The translations under genes were made by a program, and so were the position numbers. Of a stretch of 35,414 nt of DNA, positions 8,153 to 32,087 are shown one piece after another. Numbering within the stretch: position 1 is the stretch's first letter; every line of letters begins with the position of its first letter. The notes below the pieces were generated by a model. That model was given only the letters and a program-made list of their open reading frames with translations. It was not told where the DNA came from and made no database searches. Source of the DNA: Actinomycetota bacterium (lineage in GTDB: Bacteria > Actinomycetota > Acidimicrobiia > Acidimicrobiales > WLNW01); contig WLNW01000013.1 of assembly GCA_009699605.1 (NCBI GenBank), positions 1 through 35,414 on the forward strand. The letters are read 5' to 3'.

Positions 8153-8647
8153 TCAGCTGCGGTAGCCCGGCGGGAGGCCGGCGTTGTAGCTCGAGCACGT
8201 CACGGTGACCGAGCCGGTGCCCACCGGCTCGCCCACCCGGGAGGCCAGGTCGAGGTTGCGGACGAACTGGATCGCGTTGCCGCTCACGACGTTGTCCGCG
8301 AAGGACAGGTCGACCGGTTCGGCGAGGGTCGGTTCGAACACCGACTCCTTGTCGCCCACGGTGACCCCGACGTACGGGTCGTCGAAGAAGGCCTGAACCA
8401 ACGCCCGGGTCGGGTGACCCGAGACCGGGTCGATGCCGGCGCCCACCGCGACCACCGCCCCGGTGCCCGGCGAATAACAGGTCATGACGAAGACATAGGT
8501 GTTCGTGCCGATCACGATCGTGCCGTTCGCCACCGCGACCGCGGCGCTCGAAGCGCGGGCATCGAGGGACGGCTTCACGCCACCCCCCGAGCACGCAGCC
8601 AGCGCGAACGCCGCCAGAAGTCCGATCACCCTCGCCGTCCGTCGCAC
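8153..8647 (-). CDS. Small lipoprotein, weakly LpqH-like
   Basis: A 164-residue predicted lipoprotein. From the GTG at 8647 the protein opens with VRRTARVIGLLAAFALAAC, a textbook lipoprotein signal with an LAAC lipobox and a Gly-rich start of the mature chain. A TAAGCT box 8 nt upstream supports this start over an upstream TTG. The mature part is beta-rich and carries two further cysteines (MTCYS and VTCSS) that could form a disulfide. This pattern is faintly like the mycobacterial 19-kDa antigen family, but I hold that with low confidence. No function can be given. It lies downstream of, and in the same direction as, the DUF4031 gene. Confidence 0.8.
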   Translation of the reverse strand: MRRTARVIGLLAAFALAACSGGGVKPSLDARASSAAVAVANGTIVIGTNTYVFVMTCYSPGTGAVVAVGAGIDPVSGHPTRALVQAFFDDPYVGVTVGDKESVFEPTLAEPVDLSFADNVVSGNAIQFVRNLDLASRVGEPVGTGSVTVTCSSYNAGLPPGYRS

Positions 8648-8655
8648 GATGTCAG

Positions 8656-8661
8656 AGCTTA
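8656..8661 (-). promoter_or_regulatory. -10 box (TAAGCT), leaderless
   Basis: On the minus strand TAAGCT ends 8 nt before the GTG at 8647 and helps choose that start for the lipoprotein gene. Confidence 0.45.
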
Positions 8662-8733
8662 CGCATGCCAAAAAATGAAACGAGCCGCAACCGTACGACG
8701 CTCACACCGACGGTTCGGCCAGGGATTCGAGCG

Positions 8734-9255
8734 TTAATCGAGCGGCGGGGCTGCGATCACCACGTCGAGGATCAAGCCTTCGGGGCGCTCGACCGTGAAC
8801 GCAACGTGGGCCACCGCGTGCGGAGGGTTTCGCGCATCGACCAGATCGGTTCGTTGAAGCACCGAGCTCAGGCCGACCGAGCCGTGGCGCCACAACGCGG
8901 TCGTCCAGCCGATCACCTGGCTCGCCGGCCACGCGTCATGGAGCCACGCGAGCGCCCTCACGACGACGAGGTCGTCGAGCAAGGCGTCGTTCCACGCGGC
9001 GCGGCGGCGCACCCGCAGACCTGAGTCGACCAGGGCTTCGACCAGCACCCGGCTGGTCACGGGTCGGGCGCCGAGCTCGATCGCCGCTTCTCGAACCGCG
9101 GCGGGCACGTCGTAGTGATCGTCCTGGAAGGCAAGCCGGCGTATGCCGAGCCGGTTCGCGAACGCGTGCAGCTCGGCAGGCGAGGTGTCGCTCACGAGAT
9201 GGGCCCACCGATCGCCGCGCCACGGCCAGTCGGCCTCGTCGACGAGCACGCTCAT
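8734..9255 (-). CDS. DUF4031 domain protein
   Basis: A 173-residue protein whose N-terminal half matches the DUF4031 pattern: VDEADWPWRG, WAHLVSD, ELHAFA, RLGI and HYDVP all fall within residues 4-50. The family is common in actinobacteria and its biochemical role is not established. The C-terminal half has no motif I recognise. Its ATG overlaps the stop codon of the desaturase gene by 4 nt (ATGA), so the two are very probably co-transcribed and translationally coupled at the end of the dut-desaturase operon. Confidence 0.88.
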   Translation of the reverse strand: MSVLVDEADWPWRGDRWAHLVSDTSPAELHAFANRLGIRRLAFQDDHYDVPAAVREAAIELGARPVTSRVLVEALVDSGLRVRRRAAWNDALLDDLVVVRALAWLHDAWPASQVIGWTTALWRHGSVGLSSVLQRTDLVDARNPPHAVAHVAFTVERPEGLILDVVIAAPPLD

Positions 9256-10157
9256 ACGTCGGTGGGTACCTCAAGGGCGCGCTCGGAAAGACGCGACGCG
9301 ACGCGTCCGACCTTGTCGACGTAGGCCACAATCGACGCCTGGGCACGCTGGCCTTCGGGTGACAGTCCACGCAGGCCCGCGATGCCCCAGTGCCGCAGCA
9401 CCACCGGCACGAGGATCTGTTCGTGGTGCACGCGGAAGTCGTAGATGCCGGCCTTGCTGATGGCTCGCGAGTGCGACGCAAAGTCGGGGATGCCGGTTCC
9501 GGGCATGGCGAACCCGAGCACCTCGGCCTCGAGCGCGACGGTGAGCGCGGACGCGTCGAGCTCGAACGCGGCCGAGGCGAGGTCGCGATAGAAGAGGTAG
9601 TGGAAGTTCTCGTCGAACGCGACGCGCTTCATGACCTCTTGACCCGCCGGGTCGGTGATGAGCTTGCCGGTGTTGTGGTGCGAGATGCGGGTGGCCAGCT
9701 CCTGTAAGGCCAGGTACACGAGGCCCTGCGCGGTGGTCGGCGGATCGGGCACCTGCGCAGTGCTCATCTGCTGCATGCGGCCGCGCTCGAGCTCGATCGG
9801 ATCGATCGCGTTCGACAACGTGAGGTAGTCGCGGATGACCACGGAATGGCGGGCTTCCTCGGCGGTCCAACGGCGGGTCCACTGGCCCCACACGTCGTTG
9901 TCGCCGAACAGCCGCTGCACGTCGCGCAGGTAGTAGGGCAGGTTGTCCTCGGTGAGGAGGTTCACGAACAGTGCGCTGCGCACGGCTTGGGGCAGGCCCG
10001 AATCTTCTGGGCGCCACGGACGGTCGACCACCACCGACGGGCCGCGGTCCCAGGGCACGTACTCGTGCGGGAACCACTCTTTGGTCTGCGCGAGATGGCG
10101 CTCGTAGAGCTTCTCGGCCGTCGGTGTCAGTTCACGAAGGAGCGTGACGTCGTCCAC
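9252..10157 (-). CDS. Acyl-ACP desaturase (soluble diiron type)
   Basis: A 301-residue member of the plant-type soluble acyl-ACP desaturase family, which puts a cis double bond into ACP-bound fatty acids using O2 and reduced ferredoxin. The six diiron ligands can be placed: Glu70 (TEDNLPYY), Glu101 and His104 (EEARH), Glu153 (LQELA), Glu183 and His186 (DENFHY). Length fits the actinobacterial DesA group. The GTG start at 10157 is preceded by a TAGGAT box 6 nt away and lies 22 nt after the dut stop codon, so both operon and independent transcription are possible. The nearby thioesterase gene (16482-17270) also acts on acyl-ACP. Confidence 0.93.
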   Translation of the reverse strand: MDDVTLLRELTPTAEKLYERHLAQTKEWFPHEYVPWDRGPSVVVDRPWRPEDSGLPQAVRSALFVNLLTEDNLPYYLRDVQRLFGDNDVWGQWTRRWTAEEARHSVVIRDYLTLSNAIDPIELERGRMQQMSTAQVPDPPTTAQGLVYLALQELATRISHHNTGKLITDPAGQEVMKRVAFDENFHYLFYRDLASAAFELDASALTVALEAEVLGFAMPGTGIPDFASHSRAISKAGIYDFRVHHEQILVPVVLRHWGIAGLRGLSPEGQRAQASIVAYVDKVGRVASRLSERALEVPTDV

Positions 10158-12385: not shown

Positions 12386-14584
12386 CCCCACGAGCTCTGG
12401 TTCAGGCTCACGGTCGGGGAACATCGGTGGCGTCGCGATCGGCGCGAGGTAACGGCCGCGCCAGCGTCGATCGAGGTACACGAGCGCAGCAACTGCGGCG
12501 AGGCCCGCGAGGAACAGCAGCGCGTAGTTCGGGTACTGCTCGTAGGTGAACGCGATCTCGTGCGTTCCCGCAGGCACCAACACGCCCACGAACGCCGGGG
12601 CGACCATCACCGTCGGTCGCCTCACGCCATCGACCGTGGCCTCCATGCGCGGGTGATACGCAACGCGCAGCATCGTGTAGCCGGGGCGAGCCATCGTGAC
12701 ACGTGCGGTGTATCGACCGGCGTCGCCGTCAGCGGTCTGGTCGATCACCGTGCCGGGCGATGTCATCACCCCGGGCACCACGGTGGATGCGACCGGCTTC
12801 AAGTTCTCGTACGTCACGGCCGCCAGCACGGGCGATGAGCTGGCCGATCGTTCGCCGAGCACCGTCTCGGCGCCGATGCCCACGTTGTCGCGCTCGGCCG
12901 CGTACGAACCTTCGATATCGACCACACCGACGTAGCCCGCGGCGTTCTCGATCCGGTAGAGCGCGTGGCGGCCCTGGGTCTCGACGAGGGTGCCGGTCGG
13001 GGGTCCCGCGCGCTCTGCGGGTTGTATCACCCAGCGCACGTTGAACAGCTCGTAGTGCCACGCGTTGTTCTGGTTGAAGCGCACTTCGACGTCGGCGAGG
13101 AGCGACGGGACGCGCAACGAGTAGCCGAGAACATCGGTCGGACCGGCTTCTTGGATGCGCGTCTGCGTGCGCGAACCACCCACGTAGTACTCGCCGCCGT
13201 TGTCGCCGAGCAGGCCTGCGTATATGCGTCCGCCGCCCTGGGCGAACGAGGTGGCCACGAGCGCATCGACTTGTGCGCCCTCGGTGGCGTCGTACGTCTT
13301 CTGTGCCTCCATCCATCCGGCGGCCTGACGCTCGTGCGAGTCGGTCACGTTGATGGCGGGGAGGAACGCCAGGATGACCACGATGCCGAGCGCCAGCTCG
13401 TACGCCGGCCGTTGGGCGTGCCGCAGCCGGGGCTGCCAGTCGCGCAATCCGCGCCACAGGTAGGTGCTTCCTTCGACCACGCCGATCGCCGCGATCAGCA
13501 CGCCGGCCATGTGCACGCCGCTGATGAAGCGGTGCAACAGGAGCGAGCTGATCCCGGGCAACAACGAGATCACCGGCCCGAACGGGTCCTTGCCGCAGAA
13601 CAAGACCACGCTTCCGATAAAGAACCCGGCGAGCATCCGGCACAACGGATCGCGGCGAGCCTTGAGCAAAACCACGAGCAATCCGAGAAAGACCAGCACG
13701 GTGAGCACCGGCGGATGGTCACGGTCGAACAGCTGCCCACCGAACAGCCACCCCATGACCTTGCGGGCGCCGAACGAGTCGACCCACACGGTGTTGGCGT
13801 TGTACTGCGTGTTCGCACTCCACGCCTGATCGGTGAACACGGGCACCAACAACCAGCTGCTCATGGCCAGCGAGCCGAGGATCACCATCACCATGCGCAG
13901 CACACGACCGCGGAGGTCCACGAACGACACGACGGCCATCGCGCCGATCACCAGCGCGAGCATGTAACCCGTCTGCAGATGCGTGCACATGACGAACGCC
14001 GTGGCCGCCGCGGCGGCCGCAAGGTTGCGCCGTTCGGTGATCGCGCGCCACGCGAATCCCATGGCGATGGGGAACATCCACATGCCCCATTGCTGGGCCC
14101 ACAACCCGAGCCCGCGCCACACGTAGCTGCTGTGCTCGAAGCCGTAGCTCGGGTTACTCGCCACGAGCGGTGCGAGCGCGGCGGCCACGATCGCAGTGCC
14201 CACCGAGAGGCGCATCAACCGGCAACCGAGGTACACCGCGACGGGCCACGTTCCGAGGATGACGAACGTTGTCCAGCGCGACGCGCCCCCTACGCCGATC
14301 ACCTCGGCGAGGAACGCCGACACCAGGTGGGGCAGGGTCTGGTACTGGTGCATCATCGAGAAGCCGAGGCCGATGCGCGGGAACCAGCCATCGATCGGGA
14401 AGTGGCCGGCGTCGAGCCGCCCCACCGCCCAGTCGATCAAGGTGCGATGCACGGTGAGATCGCTGCGGGTGGTCACCGCGGTCAATTCAGGCCGCAGGAT
14501 CCACAGATTCACCGCGGCGACGAGCCCCACGGCGAGCCACGGCCTGCGTACGAATCGGTGCAGGCGCTCGAACACGTCGGTCAC
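12317..14584 (-). CDS. Large multi-pass membrane protein, YfhO / GT-C-like
   Basis: A protein of about 755 residues with roughly a dozen hydrophobic segments in the first 430 residues, a large soluble region (about 430-690) and one membrane helix near residue 700. This is the layout of YfhO and related GT-C-type proteins, which use polyprenyl-linked sugars. An acidic SDLTVHR segment in the first external loop and a jelly-roll-like C-terminal region (PAGTHEIAFTYEQYP) fit that family. A role in cell-surface glycosylation is inferred. I prefer the GTG at 14584. The longer frame starts at a GTG (14611) lying in the loop of a 10-bp hairpin. The 3' end overlaps the convergent hydrolase gene by 69 nt. 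Confidence 0.8.
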   Translation of the reverse strand: MTDVFERLHRFVRRPWLAVGLVAAVNLWILRPELTAVTTRSDLTVHRTLIDWAVGRLDAGHFPIDGWFPRIGLGFSMMHQYQTLPHLVSAFLAEVIGVGGASRWTTFVILGTWPVAVYLGCRLMRLSVGTAIVAAALAPLVASNPSYGFEHSSYVWRGLGLWAQQWGMWMFPIAMGFAWRAITERRNLAAAAAATAFVMCTHLQTGYMLALVIGAMAVVSFVDLRGRVLRMVMVILGSLAMSSWLLVPVFTDQAWSANTQYNANTVWVDSFGARKVMGWLFGGQLFDRDHPPVLTVLVFLGLLVVLLKARRDPLCRMLAGFFIGSVVLFCGKDPFGPVISLLPGISSLLLHRFISGVHMAGVLIAAIGVVEGSTYLWRGLRDWQPRLRHAQRPAYELALGIVVILAFLPAINVTDSHERQAAGWMEAQKTYDATEGAQVDALVATSFAQGGGRIYAGLLGDNGGEYYVGGSRTQTRIQEAGPTDVLGYSLRVPSLLADVEVRFNQNNAWHYELFNVRWVIQPAERAGPPTGTLVETQGRHALYRIENAAGYVGVVDIEGSYAAERDNVGIGAETVLGERSASSSPVLAAVTYENLKPVASTVVPGVMTSPGTVIDQTADGDAGRYTARVTMARPGYTMLRVAYHPRMEATVDGVRRPTVMVAPAFVGVLVPAGTHEIAFTYEQYPNYALLFLAGLAAVAALVYLDRRWRGRYLAPIATPPMFPDREPEPELVGSEGDAVDEHPVAFGGGGFTGDA

Positions 14585-21606: not shown

Positions 21607-22566
21607 TCAGACAGGCCCGGGATCGGCTTCGGCTTCGGGCTTCCGAAGACCCGGGACCGGTTCGCGCAGCGCCGGGCCGATGCGTTCGAACTCCTCGGCC
21701 AACTGCTCGTAGGTGAGCTCTTCGGGAACGACGTCGCCGAGGTCGACGATGCGATAGCGATTGCCGTCGTGGCGCTCGGCGTTCACCGCCCAGCGGAAAA
21801 ACAACACGGCGATGATGACCCACAGGTAGAAGCCGCCGAAGATCTTCATGATCGCGCCCGCGGCCTGCTGGTCGTCGATCACGCCGATGTTCCACAGGCG
21901 GTACGGGCGGTCGTAGATGCGATAGACGGGGTTCTGAGCGAACGTGAGCCACGCACCCGGAACGGTGGGCACGACCGACTGCATGAACAGATACACCATG
22001 CGGGCCGGCAGGCTGATGCGCAGTTCGGGTAACGGCCCCACCACCGGCGTCCACATGAGCAGGGCCGTCGCAAACAACAACACGTGCATCGCGAAGTGGA
22101 ACGGTCCGTTACGCACCGACGCGCTCACCGCGCCCTGCCAGTGCAGGAAGATGATGAGACCGTTGAAGATCACGGCCGCGGGCACCGGACGCGCCAGCTT
22201 GCGGATCCACCGCGACACCGGGCCGCCGTCGAGCAGCACGAGGCGGGCCAACCACTCGGGGGTGGCCATCAAGAACATCGGTGGAACCACGAACGACAGC
22301 AACAAGTGCTGGATCATGTGCACCGAATAGAGGTACTGCTCGCCGATGTCGTGCATCGGCCAATCGGCCGAGAACCAGAGCAGGGCGACCGCGCCGAAGA
22401 ACCAGCCCTTCTGCCGGCGCGTGACTGCGACCTGACCGGGCGGCACCACCTTCGGTGCGATCACCCGAACCCCATAGCCCCCCACGATGACGATGCCCGC
22501 GACAAGCACCCACACCTCGGGGTGTGGTTGCCAGCGCCACGGGTCGGTGCCGGCGGCGAGCAGCAT
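21607..22566 (-). CDS. ctaG: CtaG-type cytochrome oxidase assembly protein
   Basis: A 319-residue protein of the Bacillus-type caa3 CtaG family, needed for assembling copper-containing aa3/caa3 oxidases. About seven membrane segments are visible between residues 15 and 260. Family-like conserved residues include the HMIQHLLLSFVVPP segment, NGLIIFLHW and HFAMHVLLF, whose histidines may bind copper. The cytoplasmic tail (about 265-319) is acidic. It is the last gene of the oxidase locus, starting 4 nt after the ctaF stop codon. It is unrelated to the Cox11-type proteins that share the gene name. Confidence 0.92.
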   Translation of the reverse strand: MLLAAGTDPWRWQPHPEVWVLVAGIVIVGGYGVRVIAPKVVPPGQVAVTRRQKGWFFGAVALLWFSADWPMHDIGEQYLYSVHMIQHLLLSFVVPPMFLMATPEWLARLVLLDGGPVSRWIRKLARPVPAAVIFNGLIIFLHWQGAVSASVRNGPFHFAMHVLLFATALLMWTPVVGPLPELRISLPARMVYLFMQSVVPTVPGAWLTFAQNPVYRIYDRPYRLWNIGVIDDQQAAGAIMKIFGGFYLWVIIAVLFFRWAVNAERHDGNRYRIVDLGDVVPEELTYEQLAEEFERIGPALREPVPGLRKPEAEADPGPV

Positions 22567-22570
22567 CGAC

Positions 22571-22909
22571 CTACCAGAACTCGAAAATGGTGAGGAGCAC
22601 GCAGTAGACGGAGACTGCGAACGTGAGCCCAGCCACGAACATCGTGGTGAACATTTTCGAGTCGAACTTCAGATGCATGAAGTAGCCGGCGACGATCGCG
22701 AACTTGACGATCATCATCGGGATCAAGATCGCAACCAGCAGACCACCCGTGATGTCGAACGTGTAGGTCGACACCTCGGCCGCGGTCAGCACGGCCAGGA
22801 TGATCGCGATCTTGACGTACTTGAGATCGGACGGATGGTCGTGCGCTCCCGCGTGCGCGTCACCCGACGCGGCGGGCGACACATCATGCGTCTCGGAGAC
22901 GGTGCTCAT
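22571..22909 (-). CDS. ctaF: Cytochrome c oxidase subunit IV (CtaF-like)
   Basis: A 112-residue small oxidase subunit with three membrane helices. The His/Asp-rich N-terminus (about 1-30) is followed by LKYVKIAIILAVLTAAEV, a helix through VKFAIVAGYFMHLKFD and a final helix. The YFMHLK motif is a hallmark of the prokaryotic COX4 family. It probably stabilises the subunit I/III core. A GAAGGAG ribosome site precedes the ATG. It lies between ctaE and ctaG in the main oxidase operon. Confidence 0.9.
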   Translation of the reverse strand: MSTVSETHDVSPAASGDAHAGAHDHPSDLKYVKIAIILAVLTAAEVSTYTFDITGGLLVAILIPMMIVKFAIVAGYFMHLKFDSKMFTTMFVAGLTFAVSVYCVLLTIFEFW

Positions 22910-22922
22910 CGGGAGCGCTCCT

Positions 22923-23552
22923 TCAGGGGATCAGGTAGACGATCGTGAAGATCACGATCCACACGACATCGACGAAGTGCCAGTACAAGCCGATGATCTC
23001 AACGGTCTCGGCTTGGGCCTGGTGCAGGTGGCCCCGGTAGGACCGCACGAACAACGACATCAACATGATGATGCCGATGCTCACGTGCACCCCGTGGAAT
23101 CCGGTGAGCGTGTAGAAGGCCGAACCGAAGATGTTGGTCGTGTAACCCAACCCCTCACGGTAGAACCCGGTGAACTCGTAGATCTGCCCACCGATGAAGA
23201 TCGAGCCCAGCACCGCAGTGGTGAGCAACCAGACCCGATTCGCGCGCTCGTCGCCCCGCTGGATGGCCGACAACGCGAGCACCATGGTGAGCGAGCTCAT
23301 GAGCAGCACGAACGAACTGGCCGAGGTGAACGGGATGTCGAACACATCCTTCGGACCAATGGAGCCTTCGGCGATGCGGTTCTTGTACAGCAGGTAGGTG
23401 GAGATCAAACCACCGAAGAGCAGACATTCGGAACCCAGGAACAGCCACATCGCCAACTTGGTGTTGGAGATGCCGGTGCTCGCGCCGTGACCGTGACCGT
23501 CATCGCCGGCGTGCTCGGCTGGGGCGTGAGTGGCAACTGCGACGTCAGCCAT
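22923..23552 (-). CDS. ctaE: Cytochrome c oxidase subunit III
   Basis: A 209-residue heme-copper oxidase subunit III with five membrane helices, the short bacterial form. Family residues are intact: the conserved Glu in LFLGSECLLFGG, GFHGVHV with both histidines, and YWHFVDVVW near the C-terminus. Subunit III stabilises subunit I and helps proton uptake. The first 25 residues are His/Gly-rich. The ATG at 23552 overlaps the ctaD stop by 8 nt and has a GAGGAGG ribosome site inside the ctaD coding sequence. A longer in-frame extension into ctaD is not used. Confidence 0.95.
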   Translation of the reverse strand: MADVAVATHAPAEHAGDDGHGHGASTGISNTKLAMWLFLGSECLLFGGLISTYLLYKNRIAEGSIGPKDVFDIPFTSASSFVLLMSSLTMVLALSAIQRGDERANRVWLLTTAVLGSIFIGGQIYEFTGFYREGLGYTTNIFGSAFYTLTGFHGVHVSIGIIMLMSLFVRSYRGHLHQAQAETVEIIGLYWHFVDVVWIVIFTIVYLIP

Positions 23553-25542
23553 TGCCGACCTCCTCGGCGCCGACCGACGCCAGCGCGAGCCCGGGTGACG
23601 GATCGTCGTGATCGTCGTGACCGTGGGCCTTGTTCGGGTCATCGGGTGGTTCCATCACCCAGCCGTACACGCCACCCAGCAGCAAGATCGCGCCCGGAAT
23701 GGTGAGCAGCAGGTTGAAGATCAGGCCGTAGCCGATGAGGGGCAGGCCCAACGCCACGACGAGCGGCCAGTACGACGGTGACGGCAGATGGACGTTCTTG
23801 TTGTCGCCCTTGTGCGCGACCTCTTCACCGGTGGCGATGCGCACCACCTTGTGATCCTTGTCGTAGCCGTACTTGCGATGCCAGAACTCGTCGAGACCGC
23901 GAACTTCGATCTCTTCGTCGAAGTTGTGCTCGGGCACCGGGGACGCGGTCATCCATTCGAGGCTGCGGGCGTCCCACGGGTCGGGCCCGGCGGGCGGTAT
24001 GAGGCCCCGTTTGTAGCGGACCGTGCTCAGCACCACGTTCACGAGGAACGAGGCGACCGACAAGGCGATGATGAACGCACCGATCGACACGATGAGGTTC
24101 CAGAACTCGAAACCGAACCCGGGCGAGTAGTGATCGATCCGGCGGCTCATGCCCTGCAAGCCAAGGATGTGCATCGGCCCGAACGTCATGTTCATGCCGA
24201 TGAGCTGGAGCCAGAAGTTGACCTTGCCCAACTTGCTGTCGAGCTTGTAGCCGAAGATCTTCGGCCACCAGAAATAGAAGCCACCGTAGAAGGCCATGAT
24301 GATCCCGCCGAACACCACGTAGTGGAAGTGGGCGACGATGTAGTAAGTGTCGGTCTGCTGGGTATCCGCCGGCGACACCGAGTGCGTGACGCCCGAGAGC
24401 CCGCCGATGGTGAACATGGCCGGTACGGCGATGGCGTAAAGCATCGGCACTTCGAAGCGCAACCGCCCGCCCCACATCGTGGCGAGCCAGTTGAGGATCT
24501 TCACGCCGGTCGGCACGGCGATGAACATCGTGGACAGCGAGAACGCGGTCACCGAGAGCGGGCCAATGCCCGACACGAACATGTGGTGCGCCCACACGCC
24601 CCAACCCATGAAACCAATCGCGATGCCCGAGCCGACCATGAACGAATAGCCGAAGATGGGCTTGCGGCTGAAGGTCGGGATGATCTCGGACACGATGCCG
24701 AACGCAGGTAACACGAGCACGTAGACCTCGGGATGCCCGAAGATCCAGAAGAGGTGCTGCCACAGCAACGGATCGGCACCCGCTTCGACGCGGAAGAAGT
24801 TGGCCCCGAAGCGCCGGTCGAAGGTGAGCAAGAACAGCGCGACCGTGATGACCGGAATGGCGAACAGCAGCAGGAACTGCGTGACCAACAACATCCAGGT
24901 GAGCACCGGCATGCGCATGAGCGACATGCCCTTGGTGCGCATGTTCAGCACCGTGGTGATGAGGTTGATGGCACCGACCAGTGAGGCGATGCCCGTGATC
25001 TGGAGACCGAGGGCGTAGAAGTCCATGCCATGGCCCGGTGAGTACGCCACGCCGGTGTTCGGGGCGTAGGCGAACCAGCCGCCGTCGGCACCGCCGCCGA
25101 AGATCCACGACGAGCTCAGGAACAGTCCGCCGACGAGGAAGCACCAGAAGCTGAACGCGTTGAGGCGAGGGAACGCCACGTCACGGGCGCCCACCTGCAG
25201 CGGGATGAAGTAGTTCGAGAAGGCCGCGCCGAGGGGCATCGCCACCAGGAAAATCATGGTGACACCGTGCATGGTGTAGATCTGGTTGTAGGTCTCGGCG
25301 CTGAGCAGCGACCCGTCGGGGCGGGCCAACTGGATGCGGATGAGCAGCGCTTCGATGCCACCGACGAGGAAGAACACCAGCCCCGCCGCGCCGTACATGA
25401 TGCCGATCTTCTTGTGGTCGACCGTGGTCACCCACGAGCGCCAGCCGCCTTTGGCGGTCGGCCGTGCAAAGACGCCCAACGGGGATCGCACCTCGGGTGC
25501 GCGGCCAGTGCCGATCGCAAGGGGCTGTTCGATGATGGCCAT
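23545..25542 (-). CDS. ctaD: Cytochrome c oxidase subunit I
   Basis: A 665-residue catalytic subunit that reduces O2 to water and pumps protons. All metal ligands are present: His92 and His407 for heme a, His405 for heme a3, and His270, His319 and His320 for CuB. Tyr274 in GHPEVY is the residue that cross-links to His270, and Glu272 marks an A1-type D channel. Twelve core helices end near residue 520. The C-terminal extension (about 590-650) adds two more hydrophobic segments starting PSYWPLVVALGL, a subunit IV-like module also found in the gene at 26950-27723, then a His/Asp-rich tail. It lies between ctaC and ctaE. Confidence 0.98.
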   Translation of the reverse strand: MAIIEQPLAIGTGRAPEVRSPLGVFARPTAKGGWRSWVTTVDHKKIGIMYGAAGLVFFLVGGIEALLIRIQLARPDGSLLSAETYNQIYTMHGVTMIFLVAMPLGAAFSNYFIPLQVGARDVAFPRLNAFSFWCFLVGGLFLSSSWIFGGGADGGWFAYAPNTGVAYSPGHGMDFYALGLQITGIASLVGAINLITTVLNMRTKGMSLMRMPVLTWMLLVTQFLLLFAIPVITVALFLLTFDRRFGANFFRVEAGADPLLWQHLFWIFGHPEVYVLVLPAFGIVSEIIPTFSRKPIFGYSFMVGSGIAIGFMGWGVWAHHMFVSGIGPLSVTAFSLSTMFIAVPTGVKILNWLATMWGGRLRFEVPMLYAIAVPAMFTIGGLSGVTHSVSPADTQQTDTYYIVAHFHYVVFGGIIMAFYGGFYFWWPKIFGYKLDSKLGKVNFWLQLIGMNMTFGPMHILGLQGMSRRIDHYSPGFGFEFWNLIVSIGAFIIALSVASFLVNVVLSTVRYKRGLIPPAGPDPWDARSLEWMTASPVPEHNFDEEIEVRGLDEFWHRKYGYDKDHKVVRIATGEEVAHKGDNKNVHLPSPSYWPLVVALGLPLIGYGLIFNLLLTIPGAILLLGGVYGWVMEPPDDPNKAHGHDDHDDPSPGLALASVGAEEVGNG

Positions 25543-25600: not shown

Positions 25601-26947
25601 TCACTCGACCTCGGTCTTGGTGATGATCTCGGCCGCCGGCTTGGTGCCCGTGGACAGCAGGTATTCGACGAGATCGTTGATCTGGGGCTCGCTCAACTGA
25701 AGGTTCGGCATGCCGCGTTCGCCCACGGCGTAGGCGGGTTTCTCCTTGGGCGGGTTGCGGAGCCACGCCTCGAGCTGGGGCCGGTTGACCGTACCGTCAG
25801 GGTTGTACAGGTTGAAGATGCCACCGGCGTAGGTGGTGCGCGACGAGAAGTGCGTGAGGTTGGGCGCCGCCTTTGACACTTGCTGCGCCTCGCCGGTGTA
25901 GATGTCCTCGTTGATGCCCGTGGCCAGGTGGCAGCGCGTGCACTGGCCGCGGAAGATCGCCATGCCCCGGTCGGCCGCGCTGGCGGTCGGCGCAGCCAGC
26001 ACCTTGGAGGGATCGACCTTCGAGTTGAAGGTGCCGGCGGTGATGGCCTTTTGCTGATCGAGCCACGCCTGACCTTCGGGGGTAGTCGCGGTCGCAGGGG
26101 CCTTCTGCTGGGCCCACCACGTCTGGAAGTCGGCGTCGGTCATGGCGACGACCTGCATGCGCATGCGCGAGTGCGACAATCCGCAGAACTCGGTGCACTG
26201 ACCGAAGTACACGCCCGGATCGTCGGCTTCGATCTTCCATGGCTGGATGCGACCGGGGATCGCGTCGCGCTTGCCGTTCAGCGCGGGGATCCAGTGCGAG
26301 TGATTGACGTCGCGCGACGTGATGTAGAGATCGATCTCGGTGCCGACCGGGACCACCAACTGCGTGGCCGTGACGATCACCGGGTGCTTTTCGGTCTTGC
26401 CTTTGTGGTTCTGGATCTCGTTGAGCCGGACGTCGATGCCCAGGTCGTAATTCTTGGCCGGATCGAACCCGCCGTCGTAGTAGCGGTACTCCCACCACCA
26501 CTGCTGCCCGACCACCACGACCGATAGTGCTTGGTCCTTGTGGTACTTGTTCTGCGTCTGCAGCACCGACACGGTGAAGACCGCGACGACCGCGAGGATC
26601 ATGGCGGGGACGATGGTCCAGCCGATCTCGAGGCGCGTGTTGCCGTGGATCTGCTCGGGGAAGTCGACCTCGGTGTACTCCTTGACCCCGAACTTGCGGA
26701 TCATGAGGATCGTGCCGCCGATCACCAACGCGAGCACGACGCCGGCCACGATGAACACCGGCACGATCAGATTGTGCAGGTCGTCGGCGGTGGGGCCCTT
26801 GGGCTTCATGGTGTCGAGTTCGGCACCACTCGCGCACGAGGTCACGAAGGCGGAGACCCCGAGGGTGCCCACCAGCGCGAGCGCACGGCGTGGCCCACGA
26901 CGGAACGCGCCGATCGAACCGGTGTGCGGCGAACTGATCCGCTTCAC
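25601..26947 (-). CDS. ctaC: Cytochrome c oxidase subunit II fused to cytochrome c (caa3 type)
   Basis: A 448-residue electron-entry subunit. A signal segment ends in a lipobox-like VTSC (Cys38). Two membrane helices follow (about 58-84 and 107-128), then the cupredoxin domain with the CuA site Cys251, Glu253, Cys255, His259 and Met262, the remaining His being in VNHSH (about 216-218). A C-terminal c-type heme domain has CTRCH (336-340) and an axial Met413 in RGMPNL. Such fusions define caa3 oxidases. The GTG at 26947 has the best-spaced ribosome site (AAGGG); a GTG at 26953 overlaps the upstream stop codon and would add two residues. Confidence 0.96.
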   Translation of the reverse strand: MKRISSPHTGSIGAFRRGPRRALALVGTLGVSAFVTSCASGAELDTMKPKGPTADDLHNLIVPVFIVAGVVLALVIGGTILMIRKFGVKEYTEVDFPEQIHGNTRLEIGWTIVPAMILAVVAVFTVSVLQTQNKYHKDQALSVVVVGQQWWWEYRYYDGGFDPAKNYDLGIDVRLNEIQNHKGKTEKHPVIVTATQLVVPVGTEIDLYITSRDVNHSHWIPALNGKRDAIPGRIQPWKIEADDPGVYFGQCTEFCGLSHSRMRMQVVAMTDADFQTWWAQQKAPATATTPEGQAWLDQQKAITAGTFNSKVDPSKVLAAPTASAADRGMAIFRGQCTRCHLATGINEDIYTGEAQQVSKAAPNLTHFSSRTTYAGGIFNLYNPDGTVNRPQLEAWLRNPPKEKPAYAVGERGMPNLQLSEPQINDLVEYLLSTGTKPAAEIITKTEVE

Positions 26948-26949
26948 AG

Positions 26950-27723
26950 TCACTTCCCTTCGGCCGGGTGCTCGGTGCCGCCGTGATGTTCGAAGTCGCG
27001 CTCGCCGATCACGGCGGCGGTGACACCGGCGGCGATGAAGGCGAGCCCACCGAACAGGACGATTGTGGCCACGATGTTTTTCGAGATGCGAGGCTTCAAT
27101 GCGACGAGCACCGCGACGCCGAGCACGACCGCGGCGATGACGGACGCGACCCACACGGCGCCGATGCGACTCGACGACAACAGGACCCGGGAGGCGCCGA
27201 GCGGCACGGCGGCGATGGCCAGCGCGGCGACCACCGGCACTTCGATCGGGTGCATGACCCGGTCGCGCAGCTCGCGGTTGGTCTGGGGGTCGCCCGTTGC
27301 ACGGTCGGCCCAGGCCTGCATGGCCCACTCGATGGCGACGACGGTCAGCAGGCCGACGCCGACGAGGAAGATCGCGCTCGACAGGACGAGGCCGAGGGCC
27401 AGGGCGGCAACACCGAACATGGCGATGAGCGGCCAGTAGCTCGGCTGGGTGGGCAGCTGCGCCGGTGGCTGATCGACCCCGAGGGCTGCGGCAGCCGCCG
27501 TGGGGTCGGCGTCTCGGAAGGAGACGAAGAGCAGGCCGAGGAAGCCACACGTCATGGCCACGCCGATGAGGATGAGGTAGCCGGTCTGATTGCCGACCGC
27601 GCCCTTCCACCCGAGCGACAGCGGACCGGTGTTGTTCCCGCCGGTGGTGTAGCCGAAAGTGACCGCGGCCACGAGGGCCCCGACCGCCATCCCGAAATAC
27701 AGTTTGAAACTCGTGGTGAGCAT
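26950..27723 (-). CDS. Membrane protein with two subunit IV-like modules
   Basis: A 257-residue protein with about eight hydrophobic segments. Its middle part reads PSYWPLIAMFGVAALALGL and continues into a second helix, closely resembling the C-terminal extension of CtaD (PSYWPLVVALGLPLIGYGL). I take both to be the actinobacterial subunit IV-type two-helix module. The first 60 residues contain another helix pair, and the C-terminal third two or three more, ending in a His-rich tail. It has no metal-ligand motif I can see. It sits between the inactive oxidase-like pair and ctaC, is probably co-transcribed with both, and may join them structurally; that is inference. Confidence 0.8.
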   Translation of the reverse strand: MLTTSFKLYFGMAVGALVAAVTFGYTTGGNNTGPLSLGWKGAVGNQTGYLILIGVAMTCGFLGLLFVSFRDADPTAAAAALGVDQPPAQLPTQPSYWPLIAMFGVAALALGLVLSSAIFLVGVGLLTVVAIEWAMQAWADRATGDPQTNRELRDRVMHPIEVPVVAALAIAAVPLGASRVLLSSSRIGAVWVASVIAAVVLGVAVLVALKPRISKNIVATIVLFGGLAFIAAGVTAAVIGERDFEHHGGTEHPAEGK

Positions 27724-27732
27724 GAGGGCGTC

Positions 27733-28353
27733 CTACTTCGCGACGTAGATGCCGAAATAGATGACCGTGTACACGGCAACCGTGGCGTACCAGAAGATCG
27801 ATGCCGCAACGATGCCGTCGGCCTGGCGGCTGGAGTACTGACCGGCCAACGCACGGAAGGCCATGAGCAGCAGGAACACCACGGCTGCACCGACCATGAC
27901 CAGGTGGGCGCCGGTGATGACGAAGATCAGGAGGCCCTGGAGGCTGGCATCGGCGCCGGAGATCGTGAGGCCCATGCTGTTGTAGTAGTAGATCGTCTGG
28001 TTGATGACCGCGATGCCGAACAGGGCGGTGAGCGCCAGTGCCAAGTAGGCCCGGGGCCGATCATCCCGGCGGATCGAGTGCACCGCCCAGGCCATGGTGA
28101 CCACCGACATGGCCATGGTGCCGAGCATCATGCCGCCCGGGACGAGTGAGATCGTGCCGGTCTCGATCCAGGCCGTGCCGCGGCCGGCTGGCGGGGCGGC
28201 CTTGATGGTCGCGGTGCGCTCGGCGAAGTAGAGCCCGAGGAGGCCGATGAACACCATCACCGAGGCGACGGTGGCATACGCGGTGCCTACGAGGAGCGTG
28301 TGCGGTCGAGGTAGGACCTCGGCCGAGAGCAGTTGATCGGATTGGGTGGCCAT
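27733..28353 (-). CDS. Degenerate subunit III (CtaE-like) paralogue
   Basis: A 206-residue membrane protein with five helices that aligns with subunit III over its length. ITGAHLVMVGAAVVF corresponds to LTGFHGVHVSIGIIM of the functional CtaE, and SIFWYATVAVYTVIYFGIYV to GLYWHFVDVVWIVIFTIVYL. Hallmark residues are gone: the second His is Met, YWHFVD reads FWYATV, and the conserved Glu of helix III is Ser. It overlaps the preceding subunit I-like gene by 1 nt (TGATG), so the two are coupled and probably form a complex. The start at 28353 is fixed by that overlap. Confidence 0.82.
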   Translation of the reverse strand: MATQSDQLLSAEVLPRPHTLLVGTAYATVASVMVFIGLLGLYFAERTATIKAAPPAGRGTAWIETGTISLVPGGMMLGTMAMSVVTMAWAVHSIRRDDRPRAYLALALTALFGIAVINQTIYYYNSMGLTISGADASLQGLLIFVITGAHLVMVGAAVVFLLLMAFRALAGQYSSRQADGIVAASIFWYATVAVYTVIYFGIYVAK

Positions 28354-29972
28354 CAGACGGCACCTCCGTTCTCGGCGGCGTCGAGCAGTGGACGCTCGGA
28401 GCGCACGACAGGCAGCGGCCCGCGGAAGTTGCCCACGGGAGGCGGTGAGCTCGAGGCCCATTCGAGGGTGTGGCCCTGCCACGGATTCGCCGGGGCGTAG
28501 GAGCCGCTGGGCAGGAACGTTCGCACGACGGCGCCGACCGCAACGAGCGCACCGAGCGCGAACAGGCCGTAACCGACGAGGCCGATCGCGTTCATGATCT
28601 CGGCGCCGTCCTTGACCGCGGAGGTGACGAGACCGGCCGGCTGATCGTAGAAGCCGGCCGCGAAGTCACCGAGTCCGGCGAGGAAGGCCCCGCCGACGAG
28701 GGGCAGGACGGCGAGCCGGGCCAAGCCCTCGGGCACCGCCCGGCCAGTGAGCTTGGACGACCAGTATACGACGCCGGCGAAGCCGACCGTGGCGCTGGCC
28801 AAGAGCACCATCGCCATCTGTCCGTCGACCGCCGACGTGTTGCGCAGATCGAACGGGACGAACACGTACATTACGCCGGCCAACACACCGCCAAACAGCA
28901 CCAAGGCGCCGAGCAGGGCGAGCCCGAGCGCCCCGAGCGGGCCGGAGGACGCCGGCTTGCCCTGGCGAAGCGTGTCGGCCCAGGCGCCGAAGAGCGCAAG
29001 CACGGGAAGCGCGATGGCGTAGCCGACCGCCAGGAACACGAACTTGTCCTGGACGTTGGGGGCCGAAGCAAACGAACCGACGCTGAGTAGCCCGAACAGG
29101 GCGATGGCACCGAGCACGACGTCGTAGGAGCGCTGGCGGGCGCGGGCGGCGACCGGGATGATCTCGCTCACGATGCCGAGCGCCGGGATGGCGTAGGCAT
29201 AGACCATCGGCTGGCCGAACGACCAGCGGATCTGGTTGTAGAGCGCGTTCTCGGCGCCATACAGGGTCTGGGCGTGGGTGTAGTCGACGTAGGCCAGGAG
29301 GATGCGCCCGAGCAACACCGGCAACGTGAGGAACCACACCGACGACGCCACGAGCATCGACCAGGAAAAGACCGGCACGCGGCGGAGGGTCAGGCCGGGT
29401 GCCCGGAGCGTAAGGACTGTGGTGGCCACGCAGACCGCGGCGAGCAGCAGTGCGACAACGAGCACGCCGATGGCCAGCAGGGTGAGCGCCACCCCGTCCT
29501 GGTGGGTGCCCGCGGTGAGCCCGGGGGCCTCGCCGAGGCCACCGTCGGCTGCGAAGCCGCCGATGAGCAGGCCCACGCCAAGGAGCCAGACCCAGAAGGC
29601 GGCGGCCGCCGCACGGGGGAACGCGATGGCCGGCGAACCGACCTGCAATGGGACGACCGCAGTGGCAAGCCCGATGAACAACGGGAGGACGCCGCACAGC
29701 AACAGGCCGATGCGGTACGCCGCAAAGGTCTGCCAGGCGGACGTGACGCCGCCGAACAGGTCGATCGAGGTGGTGTCGAGCTTCTCGGCACCCGACAGGA
29801 CGCCGAACACCCCAGCGCCCAGGATGAACACCGCGCTCGCCAGCACGTACAACCGACCAAGGGTGGTGTGGTCGCCGGTGGTGATCAGCTCGTACAGCCC
29901 CTGGGGTTGTACGGCGGTCGTCACGGACGGCGCGGTCGTGGTGGCCGCCGCGTCTGACTCGGTGATCGTCAT
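28353..29972 (-). CDS. Degenerate cytochrome oxidase subunit I paralogue without metal ligands
   Basis: A 539-residue protein with about twelve membrane helices that aligns with CtaD from TTGDHTTLGRLYV (31-43) to HTLEWASSSP near the C-terminus. Every metal ligand is replaced. The heme a His92 position is Tyr86; the CuB motif FGHPEVY reads FGQPMVY (Gln254, Met256); the HH pair aligns with Ser/Phe near 300; and AHFHYV reads GQMAMV (Gln385, Ala387). It can bind neither heme nor CuB in the usual way and should not reduce oxygen. The frame is intact with normal codon use, so it is not a pseudogene. An AGAGGTC ribosome site precedes the ATG. First gene of the oxidase locus. Confidence 0.85.
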   Translation of the reverse strand: MTITESDAAATTTAPSVTTAVQPQGLYELITTGDHTTLGRLYVLASAVFILGAGVFGVLSGAEKLDTTSIDLFGGVTSAWQTFAAYRIGLLLCGVLPLFIGLATAVVPLQVGSPAIAFPRAAAAAFWVWLLGVGLLIGGFAADGGLGEAPGLTAGTHQDGVALTLLAIGVLVVALLLAAVCVATTVLTLRAPGLTLRRVPVFSWSMLVASSVWFLTLPVLLGRILLAYVDYTHAQTLYGAENALYNQIRWSFGQPMVYAYAIPALGIVSEIIPVAARARQRSYDVVLGAIALFGLLSVGSFASAPNVQDKFVFLAVGYAIALPVLALFGAWADTLRQGKPASSGPLGALGLALLGALVLFGGVLAGVMYVFVPFDLRNTSAVDGQMAMVLLASATVGFAGVVYWSSKLTGRAVPEGLARLAVLPLVGGAFLAGLGDFAAGFYDQPAGLVTSAVKDGAEIMNAIGLVGYGLFALGALVAVGAVVRTFLPSGSYAPANPWQGHTLEWASSSPPPVGNFRGPLPVVRSERPLLDAAENGGAV

Positions 29973-30150: not shown

Positions 30151-31047
30151 TCACAACCCGCTCCGCACGAGCTGGTCGGCCGCCATCGCGGCGAACAGCA
30201 GGGTGAGGTACGTGATGGAGAATCCGAACAGTTTCATGGCCTTGGCCGGCGTGGGAGTGCGGAGGAGCCCGACGGCCATGGCCGTGAAGGCGCCACCGAG
30301 CACGACTGCCGAGACGACGTAGATCGCGCCCATGTCGCCGATCGGAGCGAACAACAAGGTGAGGCCCCACAGCAGCACCGTGTAGGCCAGGATGCGCACG
30401 GCCACCGTGTGCAGGCTGGCCACGACAGGCAGCATCGGCACGTCGGCTGCGGCGTAGTCGTCGCGGTAACGGATGGCGAGCGCCCAGAAGTGCGGCGGGG
30501 TCCAGTAGAAGATGATGGCGAAGAGCACGACGGGGGCCCAGCTCAGGCTGTTGGTCACCGCCGACCAGCCGATGAGCACCGGCGCGGCGCCCGCCGCACC
30601 ACCGACAACGATGTTGCTCTTCGAGGTGCGCTTCAGCCACAGCGTGTAGACGAACACGTAAAACAAGCAGGCCGCAACGGCGAGCACCGCCGACAGCAGG
30701 TTGACGAGCGCCCACAGCCAGACAAAGGCCACGGCCTCAATGGCGATCGCGAAGATCAGCGCGTTGCGGGGCTCGATCAGGCCCGTGACGAGCGGCCGGT
30801 TCTGGGTGCGCTTCATCAGGCGGTCGATATCGCGATCGACGTACATGTTGATCGCGTTGGCCCCGCCCGCGGACAAGGTGCCGCCGAGCACGGTGGCCAC
30901 CATGAGCCACACCGACGGCATGCCCCGCTCGGCCACAACCATCGTGGGCACCGTGGTCACGAGGAGGAGTTCGATGATGCGGGGCTTGGTGAGCGCGATG
31001 TACCCGCGTACGCGCCGATGCAGGGTGGGCGGAGCGGGCGAAAGCAC
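30151..31047 (-). CDS. ctaB: Protoheme IX farnesyltransferase (heme O synthase)
   Basis: A 298-residue UbiA-family prenyltransferase that attaches farnesyl to heme B, giving heme O for heme A synthesis. The first Asp-rich motif is NMYVDRDID (Asn67, Asp71, Asp75) followed by RTQNRP, and the second region reads [18 protein letters not shown], both diagnostic. Eight or nine membrane helices. The GTG start at 31047 follows a TAACGT box by 6 nt. It is divergent from ctaA, the next enzyme of the pathway, and 178 nt upstream of the oxidase structural genes in the same direction. Confidence 0.96.
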
Positions 31048-31142: not shown

Positions 31143-32087
31143 GTGTGCGCACGTCGTGGCCTGACCCCTGAGGCCTACCGCCGCATCACGTCGCTCGCGC
31201 TTGCGGCGCTGGCCGTGATCATCGTGTCCGGCGCGGCCGTTCGGCTCACCGGATCCGGGCTTGGCTGCACCGACTGGCCCAATTGCCGCCAGAACCGGCT
31301 CGTCGCCGACCTCGAGTTCCACCCCATGGTCGAGTTCGTGAACCGCGTGTTCACCGGCGTCGTCTCCGTGGCGGTCATTCTCGCCGTGCTCGGGTCGCGC
31401 TTGCGACGCCCGCGGCGCGGCGATCTCACCTGGTGGTCGTTCGGCCTCGTGGCAGGCGTGCTCGGCCAGATCATCCTCGGTGCGCTGGTCGTCGTGTTCG
31501 AGCTCTCCCCCTGGCTGGTCATCGGCCACTTCCTCACCTCGATGGTGCTGGTGTGGAACGCCGTGGTGCTGCATCACCGCGCGGGGCTCCCGACCGATCC
31601 TCACGGGCACGCCGTGGTCGGCCCGCGCAACGTCGCACCCCGACTGCTCGCGCTGATCGGGCTCTGGTTCGTCGGCGCCATAGCCGTGATCTTCACCGGC
31701 ACCATCGTCACGGGTTCGGGCCCCCACGGTGGGGACGCCAAGGTCGAGCGCCTCCCCCTCCTCTTCGCGAGCGCCGCCCGCGTGCACGGCAGCACCGTCA
31801 TGGGGTTCCTCGCGCTCACGCTGCTCATCGCATGGCTGCTGCGGCAGGCAACGGCCCCGCGGTCGCTGCAAGTGCGCATGTGGCAGGCCATCGGCGTGCT
31901 CGTCGTGCAGGCCACCATCGGCTACGTGCAGTACTTCACCAAGGTTCCGGTCGTGCTGGTGGGCTTTCACATCGCGGGCGCGACGTCGTTGTGGATCGCC
32001 GTGGTGCGCTTCGCGCTCGCCACCCGCGAACCAATGGCCCCCGATGTCCGTCCCGCGCCACACGTCGCCGAGGTGGTGCACGCGTGA
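31143..32087 (+). CDS. ctaA: Heme A synthase (COX15/CtaA family)
   Basis: A 314-residue membrane enzyme oxidising the heme O C8 methyl group to give heme A. Eight helices are expected. The extracytoplasmic Cys pair is Cys42 and Cys48 in GCTDWPNC, followed by the essential Glu58 and His60 in LEFHPMVEFVNR. Further heme-binding histidines fall in VIGHF, RVHGST and VGFHIAG. The GTG start is supported by the TAGATT box. Its stop codon overlaps the clpS start by 4 nt (GTGA), so the ctaA, clpS and DUF2017 genes form one coupled operon. Confidence 0.95.
   Translation: MCARRGLTPEAYRRITSLALAALAVIIVSGAAVRLTGSGLGCTDWPNCRQNRLVADLEFHPMVEFVNRVFTGVVSVAVILAVLGSRLRRPRRGDLTWWSFGLVAGVLGQIILGALVVVFELSPWLVIGHFLTSMVLVWNAVVLHHRAGLPTDPHGHAVVGPRNVAPRLLALIGLWFVGAIAVIFTGTIVTGSGPHGGDAKVERLPLLFASAARVHGSTVMGFLALTLLIAWLLRQATAPRSLQVRMWQAIGVLVVQATIGYVQYFTKVPVVLVGFHIAGATSLWIAVVRFALATREPMAPDVRPAPHVAEVVHA

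Follow-up and report, generated by a model that had tools for sequence, protein, structure and literature searches.

The window, by which we mean the whole stretch of 35,414 nucleotides that was analyzed, carries a caa3-type cytochrome oxidase locus comprising the genes below.

21607..22566, minus strand: CtaG (caa3_CtaG type), copper assembly
22571..22909, minus strand: CoxIV-like small subunit
22923..23552, minus strand: CtaE, active subunit III
23545..25542, minus strand: CtaD, active caa3 subunit I, with all six His and the Tyr
25601..26947, minus strand: CtaC, subunit II of the active caa3, with a lipobox, a CuA motif, and a C-terminal CxxCH
26950..27723, minus strand: subunit IV' (TMx, P0005, 257 aa), with a CtaF/subunit-IV-like N-terminal half (residues ~1-144), a 3-TM domain (residues ~146-245), and a short tail
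27733..28353, minus strand: CtaE-like subunit III' (CtaEx, P0002, 206 aa), matching PF00510
28353..29972, minus strand: CtaD-like subunit I' (CtaDx, P0001, 539 aa), with the six heme/Cu ligand His lost and the 12-TM fold kept
30151..31047, minus strand: CtaB, heme O synthase, 178 bp upstream of CtaDx
31143..32087, plus strand: CtaA, heme A synthase, divergent

The genes from CtaDx to ctaC are tightly spaced: the stop of CtaDx overlaps the start of CtaEx by 1 nt (TGATG), and gaps of 9 and 2 bp separate CtaEx from TMx and TMx from ctaC, respectively. The locus holds a single ctaC, which adjoins the active ctaD. As far as the sequence can tell, a cofactor-less set of subunits I', III', and IV', with no subunit II', is sandwiched between ctaB and a normal caa3 operon. 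The initial annotation singled out the two ORFs of 539 and 206 residues as an intact, coupled pair resembling CtaD and CtaE; their lengths, strand, and overlap are as it described, but the "pair" is a part of at least three genes, the third being TMx.

P0001 matched PF00115 over residues 38-450 (E 3.8e-42) in the profile search and TIGR02891 over residues 30-518, the latter with a score far under the model cut-off, and was 32% identical to the active CtaD of its own locus in the alignment. The AlphaFold model of P0001 displayed a confident 12-TM COX1 fold (pLDDT 91.9, pTM 0.93), of which the top PDB matches were actinobacterial CtaD chains from supercomplexes (TM-score 0.85). Thus, P0001 is a homologue of the A-type heme-copper oxidase subunit I by both fold and profile, and the end-to-end homology to CtaD claimed previously was confirmed by the COX1 profile and the alignment. 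The replacement of all six ligand His was confirmed as well. In the alignment with the neighboring CtaD and 57 relatives, P0001 has His at none of the six ligand columns, at all of which the active CtaD of the locus has His. The columns for the heme a pair are occupied by Tyr86 and Ala387, that for heme a3 by Gln385, and those for CuB by Gln254, Ser, and a gap. The position of the CuB-crosslinking Tyr is retained (Tyr258), albeit neither the K-channel Lys nor Glu286 nor the heme-propionate Arg pair is present. No extra domain was found in the window CtaDx by profile search, and no His is invariant in the CtaDx alignment. Being devoid of the ligands, the proton-channel residues, the Arg pair, and a cognate CuA subunit II, P0001 has no catalytic site. 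Sequence conservation in CtaDx is concentrated in the cytoplasmic loops II-III and IV-V, as well as the C-terminal motif PW-G-TLEW-SPP, and drift in the outer loops and TM8-12. In the aa3 structure, loop II-III faces the subunit III side, and the outer face and the late helices face the subunit II side. The drift on the subunit II side of CtaDx would fit the missing subunit II'.

P0002 matched PF00510 at 2e-10 in the profile search, and in the alignment the Glu, His, and YWHFVD residues that mark CtaE are gone, in agreement with the earlier description of a subunit III homologue without its signature residues. No significant Pfam match, including PF12270, was obtained for P0005. The TMx profile matched a subunit-IV-like ORF at 2e-10, and the first half of TMx matched the C-terminal extension of the active CtaD as well as a subunit-IV-like protein whose gene adjoins one for COX3. 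TMx also showed a weak sequence match to 6adq_H (E 0.18), and its best fold match, likewise weak (E 0.35), was corynebacterial subunit IV (7q21_F). The second half of TMx, its 3-TM domain, follows ctaG in other orders of the class, where it bears a cupredoxin; a cupredoxin is also found on this domain in the deep-branching relatives of TMx. The tails of TMx are often rich in His, Asp, and Glu among the relatives, albeit the tail of the window TMx is short with few His. Regarding the gene at 26950-27723 as a subunit IV' fusion, the module amounts to I'-III'-IV' without subunit II'. The TMx proteins of one family (f7; L077, L080, and L087; ~376 aa) bear an extended outer domain resembling a degenerate cupredoxin that lacks the usual Cu ligands.

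We searched for P0001 in 148 genomes of Acidimicrobiales, and a 6-row alignment was used in a wider scan for relatives; 60 loci were inspected first and ~100 more later. The gene order ctaB-CtaDx-CtaEx-TMx-ctaC-ctaD-ctaE-coxIV-ctaG, with ctaA divergent, is kept in ~150 loci, and CtaB is directly upstream of CtaDx in 144 of the 150 loci that extend that far. A ligand-poor gene of this kind recurs at this position in ~150 other loci, and the observation is thus not due to chance. By their record titles, the carriers belong to Acidimicrobiales, Candidatus Microthrix parvicella RN1 (L244) being one of them. Among the 148 genomes, caa3 CtaD was detected in 89, TMx in 96, and both in 88 (Fisher p 6e-30, with the reservation that genomes are not independent). 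The sole genome with caa3 but no module has its locus at a contig end, and the 8 genomes with TMx alone have cut or broken caa3 loci where inspected. The module-free families of the order, where inspected, possess instead a canonical actinobacterial aa3 CtaD whose ligands are all present (14 loci). Outside the order, the best-matching loci of the phylum sample showed no CtaD free of ligands. Similar caa3 operons in other orders of the class do without the module, implying that caa3 as such does not need it, which speaks against a role dedicated to caa3. SURF1 was detected in 74 of the 148 genomes, all of which carry both caa3 and the module, and was absent from the families with canonical aa3 alone; the idea that the module replaces Surf1 was thus rejected. 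In one genome (G040), the active caa3 ctaD occupies two separate frames (L292:5641-7820), due to either sequencing error or decay.

The frames of the module are intact in nearly all of the ~150 loci, across tens of families. The dN/dS values of CtaDx in six close pairs were 0.16, 0.21, 0.24, 0.20, 0.20, and 0.16, in line with the earlier supposition that the frames are under selection. In the closest pairs, the values were 0.09-0.25 for CtaEx and TMx, 0.03-0.18 for CtaD, and 0.02-0.22 for the active subunits overall. In the tree, CtaDx evolves several-fold faster than CtaD, with end branches of ~0.9 versus 0.2. No clear partner of CtaDx emerged from rate covariation, in which some CtaE rows were possibly misassigned.

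All of the CtaDx sequences grouped into one clade (100) that is placed outside the caa3 CtaD clade. As the caa3 clade of the class excludes CtaDx (100), we rejected CtaDx as a recent duplicate of the neighboring caa3 CtaD. By similarity, CtaDx is likely sister to the canonical aa3 CtaD, the three-clade tree without an outgroup being a trifurcation. The best matches of CtaDx in both sequence and fold are indeed the canonical actinobacterial aa3 proteins (CtaD/CtaE/CtaF of Mycobacterium and Corynebacterium III2IV2), with which the module shares the C-terminal motif and the I/III/IV subunit set. In contrast to canonical aa3, the module lacks the ligands and subunit II, has subunit IV fused to the 3-TM domain, and resides inside a caa3 operon. 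With the caa3 oxidase (ctaCDE-coxIV-ctaG), the module shares the operon and homologous subunits, but CtaDx is devoid of every residue needed for O2 reduction.

Among 146 distinct CtaDx sequences, the number of His over the six ligand columns was none in 98, one in 20, two in 18, and three in 10, and no sequence retains more than one of the three CuB His. The description "ligand-free" holds for the window CtaDx, which falls among the fully stripped members, and for 98 of the 146 sequences, but not for the 24 that keep the heme-a pair or the 12 that keep the heme-a3 His. TMx bears a cupredoxin in 17 cases, 15 of which co-occur with the heme-a pair. This association is strong (15/9/2/116), albeit the independent-pairs test had too few contrasts, and a strict rule that cupredoxin occurs only with the heme-a pair was rejected due to two exceptions (L292 and L294). 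Each of the three deepest CtaDx lineages includes species with both the heme-a pair and cupredoxin. On the tree built without the ligand columns, from which the history of the ligand states was read, the state of the heme-a pair changes at least 7 times. As regain of both His is unlikely, we regard these changes as repeated loss. The order of loss reads as CuB first, already in the ancestor, followed by heme a3 and cupredoxin, and last by heme a. If so, the series would span from a predicted heme-binding, copper-linked complex to a bare scaffold, and the ligand-free state would be its end.

The single origin, the fixed place in the caa3 locus, the near-obligate co-occurrence, the purifying selection, the kept fold, the ligand series, and the absence of subunit II' lead us to lean slightly toward CtaDx, CtaEx, and TMx being an old aa3-type core (subunits I, III, and IV) that lost its cofactors and now serves the adjacent caa3 in a structural or assembly role, without catalysis. 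The ancestor probably held heme a together with a cupredoxin and took part in electron transfer, and the scaffold alone would remain in the lineage of the window. The three proteins may still assemble together and dock on CtaC/CtaD/CtaE, either as the permanently inactive half of a heterodimer or as an assembly platform. Alternative complex III was rejected as a partner, as NrfD is absent from genome G000, in which cytochrome b is present. The cytochrome b (PF13631) match of this genome, at G000:C201:4867-5286 (L211), is interrupted within its scored part by two in-frame stops, perhaps due to an assembly error or a broken gene. A further-reaching proposal, which we put forward only tentatively, is that Acidimicrobiales possess a heterodimeric oxidase with a cofactor-free former oxidase as its obligate half, that the intermediates (heme a, heme a3, and cupredoxin without CuB; heme a only; nothing) are found in living species, and that the same class did the like independently with a cbb3-type subunit I beside a bc complex.

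The main rival to the module as a structural partner of caa3 is that CtaDx, CtaEx, and TMx bind CtaB and/or CtaA and keep heme O/A synthesis beside nascent CtaD, serving heme delivery outside the mature oxidase. The adjacency to ctaB, with ctaA divergent beside it, fits a role in heme synthesis equally well, and a ligand-free COX1-like protein of Acetobacter, also encoded in a ctaB cluster, has been proposed to stabilize CtaB (PMC10715153). The rates of CtaDx and CtaB also covary, albeit weakly (0.30). On the other hand, the other flank of the module is tied to ctaC/D/E just as firmly, the usual heme-insertion factor, Surf1, is not replaced in the carriers, and most lineages conserve no residue that could hold heme. 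We thus rate the heme-delivery role as rather unlikely. The deep-branching homologues with the heme-a pair and cupredoxin, together with the tails of TMx rich in His, Asp, and Glu, could hint at unorthodox cofactor binding, with heme held by other residues or copper by the TMx tail, by which the module would act as an electron relay or a copper store for CuA/CuB. Such binding seems improbable given that neither the six ligands nor the propionate Arg pair nor the proton-channel residues are left in the window CtaDx, that no His is invariant in CtaDx, and that the tail of the window TMx is short and poor in His.

Two readings detach the module from the oxidase or from any function. The initial annotation raised a sensor or a quinone-linked scaffold, for which our analysis found no support. 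A sensor, a regulator, or a binder of quinones with no relation to oxidase structure is conceivable for any orphan membrane fold, and nothing direct speaks for it; the strict linkage to caa3 and to two further oxidase-subunit homologues in ~150 loci, and the window protein being free of any added domain, render it highly doubtful. A functionless relic decaying in the operon would account for the long end branches of CtaDx and the ligands lost many times, but it is already largely refuted, and in our view scarcely credible, by the intact frames, the dN/dS values of CtaDx, CtaEx, and TMx that stay far under 1, and the retention of invariant residues and the fold.

Pseudoenzymes are well known among kinases and proteases. 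In the module of Acidimicrobiales, a retired multi-subunit respiratory core appears to be kept beside a working one throughout an order and in graded stages, as if these soil and water bacteria held on to a defunct respiratory enzyme as a component still in use. We found no paper on the module in Acidimicrobiia. The earlier statement that no described system matches it needs some correction, in that a lone ligand-free COX1 by ctaB has a precedent: according to Degli Esposti et al. (2023; PMC10715153), who cite earlier work, Acetobacter, a member of Alphaproteobacteria, possesses a "deranged" COX1-like protein that misses all metal ligands, clusters with ctaB, was proposed to have a structural role, and occurs in genomes without COX genes. 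We liken this protein to CtaDx by its described features, and the same text reports no matching III'/IV' set, fixed link to an active oxidase, or staged loss for it (PMC10715153). New here are the complete set of I', III', and IV', its nearly obligate tie to a working oxidase, and the graded loss. The series offers natural examples of what an oxidase fold may do once redox chemistry is gone, be it docking, assembly, the ordering of supercomplexes, or the handling of heme, and the order of cofactor loss can be tested directly in purified proteins along it. The annotation of COX1/CtaD or CcoN in these abundant environmental bacteria need not mean a terminal oxidase.

We encountered a second family of ligand-free subunit I, which is CcoN-like and occurs in many families of other orders of Acidimicrobiia (L171-L190, L192, L202, and L206; for example, L192:9256-10704, minus strand). 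His was found at none of the six ligand columns in all 20 sequences first examined. The CcoN-like genes are followed by those for CcoO- and CcoP-like cytochromes c with CxxCH, and these loci are divergent from an operon encoding a b6-type cytochrome b, a ferredoxin, and a diheme cytochrome. Like CtaDx, the CcoN-like proteins are heme-copper oxidase subunit I homologues without the six His and are kept across many families. Unlike CtaDx, they are of C-type (cbb3-like) and lie beside the CcoO/CcoP-like genes and the bc/b6-type operon, not caa3. We thus treat this family as a lead separate from the caa3-linked module. A 715-aa protein of another order, encoded just upstream of ctaC (L111:9093-11237, minus strand), joins three parts: a CcoN-like domain with no ligand His, the 3-TM domain found in TMx, and a cupredoxin. 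In addition, a short N-terminal domain (LVERSAxARAEATGTSVEEVLAAWxGG) recurs on the CcoO-like, CcoP-like, cytochrome b C-terminal, and 3-TM-domain proteins of these orders (L192:7467-8474, 8465-9331, and 12806-13939; L104:8981-10123; likewise in L202 and L206), and is possibly a common docking tag of one respiratory complex.
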